The notes below the pieces were generated by a model. The model saw only the letters and a list, made by a program, of their open reading frames with translations, was not told the DNA's origin and did no database searches. From positions 10,974,001 to 11,038,000 of the forward strand of contig JAGUCH010000003.1 of the NCBI GenBank assembly GCA_019096065.1: a stretch of DNA of 64,000 bases, given 5' to 3'. The DNA is from Paracyclopina nana (lineage: Eukaryota; Arthropoda; Copepoda; Cyclopoida; Cyclopettidae). Shown here piece by piece: positions 10,908-17,217 of this stretch. Both the position numbers and the translations under genes were made by a program. Positions within the stretch are counted from its first letter, which is position 1; each line of letters starts with the position of its first letter.

Positions 10908-13900
10908 TTAGATGTAGGTATTTTCATTCTTCTCTGATGCGGACGACATGGAATTGTTAGACACAGCCACTGCCACGCTAACAGCCACCAGGTCATTTCC
11001 TGCAAAAGTAAGAAGAACCCTTTCAGCAAGGTCCATTTTTCAAAAGCACTTAGCTGGATGCACAGTTTATTTATAGCTAACAGGAACACATGGACAAGAC
11101 GACCACTTGGCATGCAAAAGGACAAACTTCTTTATGCTTGATCTGGAAATCATCTCATATTACATATATACAGTTAATTACCTCTGCCTAGCTCGTTAAT
11201 CACGCGAAGGCGTTTCTTCGTGTCTGGATGTCCTAAAGAGTGACGAATAGCAAATGATGAAAAGAAATTTTCTCTGGAATTTCACACTCTCTCGAAGAAG
11301 TCAATTACATTTGTGCACGATCAAAGGAACCAAGCATTTTATGTGGACTTTTCAGGCACTTTTTCAGAGAGAAAAAAAAGACACACGCACAATATGGGTG
11401 GAAAGCAATTTCAATTGGGAGCTTTTCAAAAGAGAAGAACATCCTGTCGAGCTACGTACAAGCAAACAACTTTGGCTGAAACTCAATTTTGGTAACAAGA
11501 TGAGCAAGCATGCAGCAGACTTTTTCAACGGCCTAAAAGGGATTCTGCACACACGATACGAGATTTGGGCTTGGATAGCATGCATCTATTGGAACTGTCA
11601 TCGTATTATATATACTTATTTTGAGACCCAAAAGATCAGTAATGCTGCGTGATCGTGAGTGCTGGTCCAGTCCCATTTGGCGACTCCAAAATGGTGAAGA
11701 CATCTTTAAGCATACATAATAATGATAATTTTTCAAAGCTGATGATTATTCTTGATTGCGTGCATTTTTCGACAGGTCTTTTTCAGCAACTCACCATCCT
11801 CGCCCTCATTGATCACGGACATGGACGAGGCCGTGGAGGATTTGCCCACGGTGAGCTTGGTGACGTTTCCGGCTGCGGCTGTCATGCCAGAAAATAATTT
11901 CGAGGCCGAGGGGAACATTTCGTGAGGGTTGTTGTACGAGGCCATGCGTGAGAACCTCATGTTGGGGGGCAGCCCATCTCTGCTCTGGCCTCCGCCGTTG
12001 GAGGCCGCCTTGCTCTGGCCTCCAGCGGCCTCGATTTCACCGTCGGGTGTCATTCGATCCTAAGGCGAAAATTATCGAATTTCGATGAGAAACGAGGTAT
12101 CCATACCTTATACAATATTATGAGGAATTCTTGAAAAGCAGATATAAAATGCTTGTGGGTTACTAAGAAAAGCATCCAAAAACTGGGTAGAAGTAAGATT
12201 GGGCGAAATTAAATCAGATGAAGCACAACTATTAGCTGTAATTGGGAGTTTGTACAGATGAAAGAAATTCTTTTGATTCTTTGTCGGTGTAAAAATGCTG
12301 GCAGAAGAAAGCTGCAAAGTAATTTTAATGAAAAAGTGACAGAATCACATTCTAAGAGAAAAAGTTCAGAATCTTGTCAGATAGCTTCATATTAAGCCTT
12401 GTCCCAATAATGCATTGAACTAATACATTTCATTATAGGTATCATATCAAGGATGATAATGGAGAAGGGATTTTAAGGACTAATATATGGACGTTTTTGC
12501 GTGAGCAATGAACCAAAATACACAAAAGGAATCTAAGCAAGTATGTTAGAAAATGGCAATAAACTCTGCTCACGAAACCACTTGAGTAATCCGTAAAAAA
12601 TAGCTGCACACACATCGATCAAAAATGCAATCACAACTCTATGGTATAGAGTGACTAAGAAGTGGTGTTTTCTTTGCAAAAATAGTACTTACAGCTGCAG
12701 TGAAAGCATCTTCTTTCATGTATTGCTGCTCAACCCAGGCATCTGCGGGGTAAGCGGATTCGCCATGTTTCAAGAGGTCCATGCCTTGAATAGAGGGAAT
12801 ATTTCATGAGCTAATTTCCACAGCTACCTCGTAAATCTTTTCCTGTCCTGACTGCCAAATTTCAAGGCTCCCAGGTCAATTTGCTGGGTATAGAAAAAGG
12901 GCCGAAAAAAGCGACAAGCTTCCAAAATTGCACCACAGATGGCGCTGTATGCCAATTAGTTTCAAAGGTAAACAAAAAACTTATCCATAAACGCACATTA
13001 ATATAAATATTTCTTTTTTTTTTCAGGACTCTGTAAAGTTTTTATGGCATTGTTTGATTATACCTTTGAACTCGTGCTCTGGCTCGACGCGGAGCATTCT
13101 GAGTTTCTTGAGGACATAAAACATGATGAAGCAATTGATGCCAGTCCAGCTGACGATTGCTACGAGGCCAATAATGTTCCACGCGAGTCCCAAAGCGGCC
13201 TCGGAGGAGCCTCCGCTTAATATGATTCCGTCCCATTTTAGCAAGTAGACGGCCAAAATGCCCCAGATGCCACCAGCTCCATGTACAGGAATGGCATCAA
13301 GTGGGTCATCAATCTTGGGAAAAATAAAAGTTGATTTTCATAATAAAAGTTCAAGAAATTCTTTGACTTTGAATGGTGCCATTAAGCTAAAAATACCAGA
13401 TGTGGCTTTTTTGGTTAACTATGCTTTTTGGCATTTTTGGCAAGCATTTGGCGGAAAAGGTTGAGTTGCATCTGGTATTTCACAAATAAACAAATAGCTG
13501 CGCCATCTAGCGTGAGTAATCATGGGATATGATGTGGTCTCTTTTCATTGTGAGGAAATGGATGGCACTTTTAGAAAGCTTACCTTGCACCTGATAAGCA
13601 AGTAGTTGCAAACAATGAACAAAGGCCCACTGAGAGCTCCGATTAAAACGGCTGCCCAAGCTGGATAGACATTGCATCCAGCACAAAGAGCAACAGTGCC
13701 TAAAAATGAGGCAATACAGCATTTTTTCGCCTATAACATATAGTTTGCTTTTATTATACCAGTCAGTGAGCCATTCATGGTGATGAGGAAACTGTAGTTG
13801 CTCCCAGTTCCAGGGACGATTCCAGTTTTGTTGAAGATGAGAGTTGCCAGGCCTGCTGCACTGGTGCCAAGGGCAGTGTTGACAATTGAGGTTGCTATGG

Positions 13901-16900
13901 CCTCTCCATCTCCAGGATTGGATATGCTGCCCTGTAAAATATGAGCTAGCATGAAAAGGGGGCTGTTTAAGGCTGAAAAGCCTGCAATAATGCATCAAGT
14001 CAAGGCATATAACCGTAACAACCGAAGAAGTTGTGCATCATTTGCTTAGAATAGCTCTCAGAGGAGCAATAAGTGCAAAACTTGGCCTTGTTTTCATTTT
14101 CAACCGCAAGGTGGCGCCAGGGAGGAAAAGCTAATTTAATAAAAAGGATCTGCATTGAAAGGCTCTTTCAGTATACTTTTCATTGCACTTTTTTTCATTT
14201 TATTGCACACTAGAGACTTCATTATGTTACTCTAGATACAGGCTACTTTTCCCAGAAACTCAGGCATATTTAGGCAGGGAAAATCCTCATCATTTGCTGA
14301 GTATTCAGCTTTGATGCAGCATGGCTATTTTGAGCTGAGCTAAAGTTCCCAACTAAAATAGTCTCTCTTCAACTTTCAGCAAACAAAACTTCACAAATGG
14401 AAAGTGAGCATAAATGGCTCATAGCTTTCAATTCATCATCATCATACTGAATTATTATAGGGAGCAAAAGAAAGGGCTTACTTGTTTGGTGCCATTGCAG
14501 GCAAAAAAGCCAAAAATCAAAATGAGTCCCCCCAGGGCTGACAAGGGAACTGAGTGGCCTGGCATGGGCACAGGTTTGCCCTTTTTGTCAAATCTGCCAG
14601 TTCGTGGCCCCATGAGCACACAGCCAACCAGAGCACACACAGCTGAAAGGGAAATCCGTTTTCATTTATGCTTGGCTAGACATTCATAGGCATATAAATA
14701 TATTTTGGTCTGGATACAAACATAGTTGTATGAACTGTAAGAAAGTAAATATTTGCTTGGGTTTGAGCACTTCCCAAAGCTGCGGAAAAAGTATCTCCTT
14801 TTGTGCACTTTCTAAGGTCTGCCAATATGTCAAAATGCTATATACATAGTAGAGACTGCGTTTTCTGAGCTTGTGGCAAACTTGTGATATTCTGTTGTTT
14901 CTCAGTGCAAACTTTTCCCTTAGTCCAAGTGACGCAGTTTTTGTGCCCAAAACTTTCTATAAAAAACCTACAAAATTGTTATATCTTGCACTTTTCTCTA
15001 ATGAGGAATGCTGTACTGCAAAGCTGGGATTATTACATGTAGCCAAACACTAATTATACACATTTTAAAAGAGCATTTTGGTGCCATACCTCCAGTGAGG
15101 TGGACTACTGCACTTCCAGCAAAATCATGGAAGCCATTGATGCTCAACCAGCCCTCTGGGTGCCATGCCCAGTGTGCAATAATGGGGTAGATGAAGCCTG
15201 TGATCATGATGCTGTAGACGATGTAGGCAATAAAGTTGCACCTTTCTGCCAGAGAGCCAGAGACCAGAGTGGCTGCAGTGGCTGCAAAAACGAACTGGAA
15301 GAACCATTTGGACAGTTTATAAGCTGCAATTAAAAGAGAAAGAAGAAGTTGCTGCTGCTGCATCAAAGAGCCACAATTGTTTACCAACCTGGCATGCCAG
15401 AGAAGAAAAAGTAAGAAGTGCCAATGAACCTCCCCCAAGATGAGCCATATGACAGAGCAAAGCCAACAGCCCAGTAAACTAGGGCTGCAATGCACATGTC
15501 TAGCCAGTTTTTAATGAGGATATTAACCGTGTTTTTGGACCTGTAGAAAAAGAGCACATAAAAATCCGAAGCTGAAGTTGTTCTTTTTTTGCCACGTCAA
15601 CAACTCATACAGCTAAGAATTCATGCGGGAAATTGAAATTTTATGACCATGTACCCAGTAGTGTCCTTGGCATATGCAAAAAGATTGCTTTTTTATAGCT
15701 ACCAGACCTTGCTTTTTTGCCATAGGCTAAAAGTGGCATTTTTCTGAAAGATTTGGCTTTAAAGTCAAGAAGGCGCCTTGACAACAACAACCAGGTCTAA
15801 ATCTTTATGACAGCTGCCATCCTTCAATTCAAAAGTTACATCATGCATAAATGCATCTCACTCAACTGAAGCAGAGTTTTAAAAAGTGTCGCAGAGAATT
15901 TTCAATGCAGCAAATTATCTCCAGTTTTACCTGACAGCTCCAGCTTCCATGAAAGCAAATCCACATTGCATGAAGAAAATGATGATGGACATGATGAGCA
16001 GAAAGAAGTGGTCCACCTCTTTGGGAGGCTTCTCCTGATTGATCAACCAGTCTCTTTGGTTCACTTTGTGCGTCTCATTGTTGTAAATGGTGGCCAATGC
16101 CTGGACATGATCCTCTTCCATGAAACTGGCCAAAATTGTTCTGCAATGAAATTAAGTGAGCACTTTGAGCCTTTTTTCACTATTAGTGTATGGCAAAAGC
16201 ATAAATGTGACAGCAGCAGCTGGAGAAGCTGGAGCATGCAAAATTCATGAAATGCCTTTGGGTACCTCTACACATAGTATAAAGTCTGCACATAGCTTGA
16301 ATGATTTATGCTATGCTCTTATGTATTTACCTGTTATTTCTTGGCTGCAAGTGGCGGAAGTTGTTGCCTATGCGTTTCCCCAGATTATTTTGCAGGGAGT
16401 GGAAGGCAGCCAATTGCTCCTCTGAGATGGCCAAGGTGTTGCGAAACACAGTCCAGGCCACGCCCTCGTGGCACGAGGGCGTGGTCAGGGAGCCAATGTA
16501 GCGGAAAAACTCCCATGGGGAATCCGGAAGGAAGCTGGCTAATGTCAAATTAGGTAAAGAGACAGGAGGGGCCTCATTAGAAGTAGTGGCCTTTCTGATT
16601 AATTTGAGGCCGCTCGTGAGGTCGGCCAAGGCCTCATTATCTTCTTTTTGAATTTCGAACAGGGTGGAAAGTATGGCCAGTCCATCTGGCTTGGCTGCAG
16701 CTTGAGCAAGGCTTGTGTACCTGAGCAAATTATTACACAATTATGTATAAGATTAAAATACATATATGGATACAGCTCACTTGGAATTGAAATGGATGAG
16801 GTGAGTTTCCAATGGGAAGGAGACACCATTCACCAAATGCTCTGATCCCTTATTGGAGCCTTTGTTGCCCCAGTGGAAGTGGATCTGAGCCAGGGAAAAA

Positions 16901-17217
16901 AGGCCATCAAGGCCACCCCCAAAGCACTCTGCTGCCTTCGAAGCATTGGGCTTTAGTACAGCAGTGTAGCCATTGTTATACAAGGTAGCAGAGGTGAGTG
17001 GGAGGTCATAGCCCACAAACTGGAGAGGCTGCATTTCGAGGTCGAGGTCAAAGGCTGGAGATTCCAAGTTGACCGGAGATTGTCTTGAGCCTTTGCTGCA
17101 AAGTCCTGGCCAGTGCCTCTGCTTGGAGTAGGACCACGTGAGGTCATGCTGGCCTCTGAGGCCTCCAACGAAGGCCGTGGTCAAGACGAGGACGACCTCG
17201 AGCTGCATCACTGTCAT
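10908..17217 (-). CDS. Carbonic anhydrase-ammonium transporter fusion protein
   Basis: Thirteen exons, complement of 10908-10999, 11182-11232, 11795-12059, 12693-12784, 13064-13313, 13584-13699, 13760-13931, 14482-14642, 15090-15323, 15389-15540, 15931-16140, 16331-16720 and 16781-17217. All junctions are in phase, 873 residues. Residues 1-22 look like a signal peptide. About 24-272 is an alpha-carbonic anhydrase with zinc ligands His113, His115 (QIHFHWG) and His139 (ETHLIHFN), Glu126/Glu137, the [10 protein letters not shown] loop with the catalytic Thr, and Cys40 plus the loop Cys matching the disulfide of secreted CAs; the His64 position is Tyr84. A linker of about 45 residues leads to an Amt/MEP transporter from about residue 321, with eleven expected helices, the [11 protein letters not shown] motif (Asp, first pore His), [10 protein letters not shown] (second pore His), and the cytosolic [13 protein letters not shown] tail. 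Neither domain shows a lesion. The CA would lie outside the cell or in a vesicle lumen, at the pore entrance. Confidence 0.8.
13385..13512 (-). repeat. Dispersed repeat family, copy 1
   Basis: Read on the minus strand it begins CGCTAGATGGCGCAGC, contains TTCCGCC and AAAAATGCCAAAAAGC, and ends CCACATCTGGTATTTTT. The same order of words recurs at 17985, 55325 and 56970 (see findings). It lies in an intron of the CA-Amt gene. No ORF. Confidence 0.55.

Follow-up and report, generated by a model that had tools for sequence, protein, structure and literature searches.

Extracellular α-carbonic anhydrases (CAs) are attached to the membrane by a glycosylphosphatidylinositol (GPI) anchor or by a single helix. 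Here we describe a gene of the copepod Paracyclopina nana whose predicted product joins such an enzyme to a complete ammonium transporter (Amt) in one polypeptide; it lies on the minus strand of a 64,000-nucleotide stretch of contig JAGUCH010000003.1 (positions 10,974,001 to 11,038,000; hereafter the window, in whose own numbering all coordinates are given). Its enzyme half resembles extracellular CAs of the CA14, CA9, CA12 and CA4/CA15 type in having a signal-like helix, a Cys pair and the catalytic residues, and departs from them in being attached to the membrane through the Amt and in carrying Tyr in place of the His64 proton shuttle. A described counterpart comes from zebrafish ionocytes, where CA15a is GPI-anchored, proximity pairs are reported between Nhe3b and CA15a and between Nhe3b and Rhcg1, and a CA15a-Nhe3b-Rhcg1 complex has been proposed (PMC3615223). 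There, too, an external CA accompanies an ammonia channel, one from the superfamily to which Amts belong; however, the zebrafish partners are separate proteins, the channel is an Rh protein and the read-out is Na+ uptake, whereas the fused protein is covalent, uses an Amt and has no exchanger.

Among the ammonium transporters themselves, AmtB binds NH4+ at an external site, S1, built from F107, W148 and S219, and the Phe gate comes next (PMC10433425). The gate pairs F107 with the inner residue F215. With AmtB and arthropod AMT1 the window protein has in common a full PF00909 domain, the Amt fold (as modelled for a relative), the twin pore histidines, D160 and W148; the fused proteins differ from both in the loss of the F215 gate, in the change of S219 to Lys (6 of 6) and in their N-terminal enzyme domain. 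Fusions of related kinds have precedents. In some cases bacterial SulP transporters carry a fused CA, which is tied to bicarbonate handling (PMC6458275). The partner in those proteins is a bacterial anion transporter, as against a member of the ammonia-channel family here. The CA fused to SulP also belongs to another CA class. Channel-enzyme fusions are described as rare, and those of an aquaglyceroporin with an arsenate reductase create a local gradient for export (PMC9775063); channel and enzyme both differ from ours, and the enzyme is C-terminal there and N-terminal in the CA-Amt protein. If a channel-enzyme fusion means that one polypeptide contains both an enzyme and a transmembrane facilitator, the window protein is one. 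Among the matches listed for literature on CA with ammonium transporter, Amt, Rh or SulP, a body of text with subscription journals mostly outside it, no title or abstract opening names a CA-Amt fusion. Channel-enzyme and CA-transporter fusions are already known; real surprise lies in the pairing of this fusion with an altered pore entrance.

Gene structure and reading frame

A first-pass annotation, made from the letters of the window, had read 13 in-phase exons (2622 nt) encoding a single polypeptide, and this structure was recovered intact. The exons run from 17217 to 10908 on the minus strand, all 12 introns have GT..AG ends, and the joined coding sequence of 2622 nt specifies 873 aa with one terminal stop and no internal stop. 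The product comprises, in order, a signal-like helix, an α-CA, a linker of about 37 aa and a full Amt, with PF00194 and PF00909 in one frame:

16781..17217, minus strand: exon 1; start codon, signal-like helix (residues 2-20) and first CA half with His113, His115, His139, C40 and Y84
16331..16720, minus strand: exon 2; second α-CA half with T225/T226, C229 and W235, ending in AG (phase 2)
16141..16330, minus strand: intron 2; 190 nt, without AATAAA or ATTAAA
15931..16140, minus strand: exon 3; third base of Arg276, TILASF (16139-16122), linker (about 16121-16008) and core of Amt transmembrane helix 1 (TM1; about 16007-15951)
15389..15540, minus strand: exon 4; Amt TM2 region
15090..15323, minus strand: exon 5; Amt F409 (AmtB F107), W450 (W148), D463 (D160) and H471 (H168)
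14482..14642, minus strand: exon 6; pore entrance with Cys523 (AmtB F215; 14499-14497) and Lys527 (AmtB S219; 14487-14485)
13760..13931, minus strand: exon 7; Amt
13584..13699, minus strand: exon 8; Amt
13064..13313, minus strand: exon 9; Amt with second pore histidine His635 (AmtB H318; 13283-13281)
12693..12784, minus strand: exon 10; end of Amt domain and start of cytoplasmic tail
11795..12059, minus strand: exon 11; cytoplasmic tail with a 20-residue block common to the long-type relatives P0002 and P0003
11182..11232, minus strand: exon 12; cytoplasmic tail
10908..10999, minus strand: exon 13; final part of the tail with the stop codon, the last 16 residues nearly matching relative P0135
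10849..10854, minus strand: AATAAA poly(A) signal, about 50 nt past the stop

The two halves are held together by exon 3, which alone encodes both the last CA strand (TILASF) and Amt TM1, in frame and unbroken, behind a phase 2 junction at which AG|A completes the codon of Arg276 as the annotation had it. The PF00194 match ends at residue 282, beyond the exon 2 donor, and the alignment to the solved structure of CA14 reaches residue 284, likewise past the junction. Because a CA ending at exon 2 would be without its last strand, and because an Amt beginning in exon 3 would bear a purposeless CA end, we read the locus as a single gene. The annotation's picture of a CA exon running into an Amt exon is thus borne out as regards the in-frame join, and is amended in that the CA domain extends past exon 2 into exon 3.

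It might instead be argued that two adjacent genes, one for a secreted CA and one for an Amt that starts from its own promoter, were merged in error, given that retention of intron 2 (16330-16141) brings an immediate stop after ...PRNNR, that exon 3 contains an ATG at 16121, and that separate isoforms could coexist. The retained product would be a CA minus its last strand, and a soluble, truncated, CA-only isoform of this sort is conceivable. A separate 3' end for the CA had also been raised in the annotation; however, in the three stretches searched (208 nt past the stop, and introns 1 and 2), the only poly(A) signal is the AATAAA about 50 nt past the stop, with no such signal in the two introns. 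Taken with the double content of exon 3 and with relatives that carry both domains, this leaves an erroneous merger so improbable that we reject it, and we are all but certain that the fusion is real. Exons 12 and 13 draw support from P0135, whose C-terminal tail is nearly identical.

Fused relatives, catalytic site and pore entrance

The annotation had proposed a search for proteins with PF00194 followed by PF00909, and such relatives exist. At least four occur among the best 120 of 323 proteins: P0002 (872 aa; 64% identity over 96%), P0003 (822 aa; 62% over 99%), P0005 (701 aa) and P0006 (695 aa). Another search, in which 2 of 14 listed proteins carry both domains, added P0132 (693 aa), bringing the full-length fused relatives to at least five; a further search, with at least five two-domain proteins among the best 120 of 1922, added the partial P0152 (392 aa). 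A further partial protein, P0135 (430 aa, 81% identity), is missing its N-terminal part and is called fused by kinship only, its tail being nearly the same as that of the window protein. These figures are lower bounds, as a protein had to have exact words in common with the query to be found: the search that added P0132 missed P0003, P0005 and P0006. The GFUD accession of P0005 marks it as part of a copepod transcriptome shotgun assembly, that of Neocalanus flemingeri (PMC6105596), and P0002, P0006 and P0132 are almost surely cDNA as well, since their contigs (2789, 2224 and 2285 nt) scarcely exceed the coding sequence. The candidate P0004 (Macrostomum lignano, 912 aa) was rejected as a long relative; it has two tandem Amt domains and no CA.

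Two subtypes can be told apart: a long type with a cytoplasmic tail (window protein, P0002, P0003, P0135), and a more divergent short type without one (P0005, P0006, P0132). In an Amt tree of 47 rows, hand-picked from a 160-row alignment (a structure alignment held 51 rows), the seven fused rows are split off by one branch with support of 100/99, from which we take the Amt half to be of one origin. Among the window protein, P0002 and P0003, Amt halves are 79-83% identical and CA halves 43-52%; the CA of P0003 may have diverged fast or been exchanged.

The CA half matches PF00194 at residues 33-282 (E 4e-70; profile 3-254 of 254), and its best solved-structure matches are CA14 (E 5e-46) and CA9. 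The signal peptide of the annotation corresponds to a signal-like hydrophobic stretch at residues 2-20, and the zinc histidines (H113, H115, H139), the Thr loop (T225/T226, equivalent to T199/T200) and the extracellular-type Cys pair (C40/C229) are as it described; E126 and E137 occupy the E106 and E117 positions. All six full fused proteins retain the zinc ligands, E106, E117, Q92, T199, T200, W209 and the Cys pair, so that CA catalysis is likely on sequence grounds. The CA domain very probably faces outside, as the annotation had held for the N-terminus, a placement supported by knowledge of the family and by the model of a relative.

The Amt half matches PF00909 at residues 322-719 (E 1.9e-100; profile 2-399 of 399), and the Amt fold is present in the structure model of a relative, among whose top structural matches are solved sensor Amts. 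F107, W148, D160 and H168 are kept in the full fused Amts (F409, W450, D463 and H471 in the window protein), and the long type also keeps H318, which gives the window protein its twin pore histidines, H471 and H635. The "full Amt" of the annotation, with both pore histidines and the binding-site Asp, is accordingly complete and yet not ordinary: the S1 serine and the inner Phe gate are replaced in all six full fused proteins. These changes, and the Tyr at the His64 position of the CA, go beyond what the annotation had seen. Of 152 unfused proteins, 151 have Phe at the F215 position; the three full long-type proteins have Cys there (Cys523 in the window protein), and the three of the short type have Gln. 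At the S219 position every full fused protein has Lys (Lys527 in the window protein), and the 152 unfused proteins have Ser (144), Thr (5), Phe (2) or Lys (1). The partial P0135 agrees, with Cys and Lys respectively. The counts come from the 160-row alignment (the window protein and 159 homologues; with eight fused or partial rows set aside, 152 unfused rows remain); the six-sequence counts set aside P0152, whose frame is lost after TM5, and the N-terminally cut P0135, and the Amt counts set aside P0122-P0131, P0133 and P0134, which have a CA and no Amt. AmtB numbering rests on an ungapped alignment across the F215-S219 stretch. A scan for fused-specific residues over positions 316-720 listed ten, the F215 and S219 sites included.

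A proposed acid-trapped ammonia efflux and its alternatives

With a probability of roughly 0.55, we propose as the whole explanation that the gene encodes an extracellular CA tethered to an Amt with a disabled NH4+ recruitment site, which would support NH3 efflux with local acid trapping; that such efflux is the main job of the protein has about an even chance. A short, flexible stretch outside the membrane would link a secreted-side α-CA to the Amt N-terminus. The Lys side chain might fill the external NH4+ site with its own ammonium group, or repel cations, such that the pore would no longer scavenge NH4+ and would let NH3 out. Beside the exit, the tethered CA would hydrate CO2, supply H+ and turn NH3 into NH4+, and ammonia and CO2 waste would thereby drive each other's removal. 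Direction, substrate and activity we infer. The annotation had spoken of a self-contained acid-trapping ammonium channel; the fusion stands, and channel function stays inferential, given the F215 and S219 changes. More tentatively, and with rather less confidence than in the mechanism itself, we envisage a one-time origin in a crustacean lineage, probably copepods, of a covalent acid-trapping NH3 exporter, in which Lys may serve as a built-in ammonium and turn an electrogenic NH4+ scavenger into an outward-biased NH3 pore dependent on the protons of the tethered CA; a second fused subtype, with one pore histidine lost as well, may be channel-like or sensory.

Several observations weigh against this proposal. 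No transcript of the window's own species was seen. In a CA tree of 26 rows the fused CA halves form one clade in 4% of 200 bootstraps, and an approximately unbiased (AU) test, run without the long or gappy L034, L035 and L036, did not reject such a clade (p-AU 0.447); a single origin of the CA half is accordingly not shown. The His64 shuttle position is Tyr84 in the window protein and His in the other five full fused proteins, and the CA of the window species may perhaps be slower owing to this Tyr. The His64 shuttle is common in fast CA isoforms and is not a defining feature of α-CAs, and mitochondrial CA5 likewise has Tyr there. The three short-type relatives (P0005, P0006, P0132) carry Asn at H318 and so also lack the second pore histidine; the fused proteins therefore cannot all work alike. 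The unfused Amt P0107 (Eurytemora carolleeae) also has Lys at the S219 position without a fused CA, and such a Lys therefore needs no tethered CA. Finally, the F215A, F215H, F215E, F215S and F215W changes abolish transport in E. coli AmtB (PMC10433425) and F215L strongly reduces it (PMC6856177), because of which the Amt half might not conduct at all.

This last consideration underlies a different account, to which we assign a minor share of the probability, whereby the fused Amt is transport-dead, Lys527 acting as an ammonium mimic in S1, the pore being closed or inactive and the trimer serving as anchor or scaffold for the external CA, or as a sensor. The AmtB F215 substitutions (PMC10433425), the Lys at the S1 serine in 6 of 6, the short type that is also without H318, and the solved sensor Amts among the top structural matches, these by fold only, all speak for it; however, the far higher identity of the long-type Amt halves than of their CA halves fits a working pore, and F107, W148, D160 and H168, with H318 in the long type, are kept. 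Among other changes reported, AmtB S219A increases transport (PMC10433425), an inner-Phe mutant of AtAMT1;2 still transported with less isotope selection (PMC6856177), and AmtB variants with a single twin histidine changed to Ala let K+ pass (PMC7447429). Lys at S219 is not reported in the passages of PMC10433425, PMC6856177 and PMC7447429 consulted.

Two further accounts retain transport and change its cargo or direction. In the first, which we consider improbable, the pore would chiefly conduct gas, either CO2 or both NH3 and CO2, with ammonia of lesser importance, and the CA would convert CO2 to HCO3- and back beside the pore opening. Rh proteins have been put forward as CO2 conductors, zebrafish being a dual ammonia-CO2 case (PMC10794816), and removal of S1 and the inner gate would be expected to favour neutral gases; but no observed residue points to CO2, the long type retains its twin histidines, and simulations of Rh50 show raised permeability to NH3, not CO2 (PMC10794816). 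In the second, more improbable still, the protein takes up NH4+ or recaptures nitrogen, the CA serving an NH4+ importer as a source of H+ or as a pH buffer at its entrance. Plant, bacterial and fungal members of the family do scavenge ammonium (PMC10433425), and D160 and W148 are kept; yet all six full fused proteins carry a cation at the S1 recruitment site, and in animal cells ammonium is excreted waste (PMC10433425).

The case for external CA and ammonia channels acting as a unit has been made with proximity assays and with knock-downs scored by Na+ uptake in fish ionocytes (PMC3615223). In a natural fusion the two activities have a set stoichiometry and position, which makes CA/ammonia-channel coupling testable in one protein. 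Copepods excrete ammonia and occur in the plankton in enormous numbers, and if the protein acts in them it bears on marine nitrogen recycling. Natural variants at S1 and the Phe gate, two debated pore sites, also bear on the question, reviewed in PMC10433425, of where NH4+ loses its proton.

Other Amt and CA genes and unfused relatives

The genome searched (92 Mb, 10 contigs) holds at least 38 PF00909 and at least 47 PF00194 matches, and by the places listed for these no second fused copy was seen: the two domains adjoin only at the window gene, the next pair among the matches listed lying about 262 kb apart on contig C4. In the best matches of the ordinary Amts L017, L019 and L021, both F215 and S219 are unchanged. 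L018, L020 and L025 align less well; one L018 match has Phe at F215 and Arg at S219, apparently reading across a splice donor into an intron, no residue was obtained at either position for L020, and tblastn yielded nothing for L022-L024. L019 groups with Eurytemora and Neocalanus rows in a set of 16 (SH-like approximate likelihood ratio test (SH-aLRT) 99, quick tree), a placement in keeping with a copepod source. Two CA genes, L029 (contig C3) and L030 (contig C7), are nearly identical on different contigs, with end branches of 0.055 and 0.03.

The Eurytemora protein P0107 has Leu, Ser and Lys at the F215, N216 and S219 positions. It was considered as a bridge to the fusion and rejected, as the tree places it within the ordinary copepod Amts (joined to P0102 at 93/79), and its remodelling of S1 and the Phe gate looks independent. 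Elsewhere among the unfused Amts, P0038 and P0074 (Darwinula stevensoni) both have His at AmtB F107 and Phe at S219, and the second pore histidine is Asn in P0160 (Ruditapes) and Tyr in P0108. A Penaeus monodon model, P0163 (716 aa), places PF04286 and PF00909 in one protein and may be an annotation artefact. P0081, P0105, P0164 and P0172, Amts of 754-826 aa, group apart in a clade of their own; the two inspected, P0081 (from the Neocalanus transcriptome shotgun assembly) and P0105, carry long tails and long N-terminal stretches rich in Thr.
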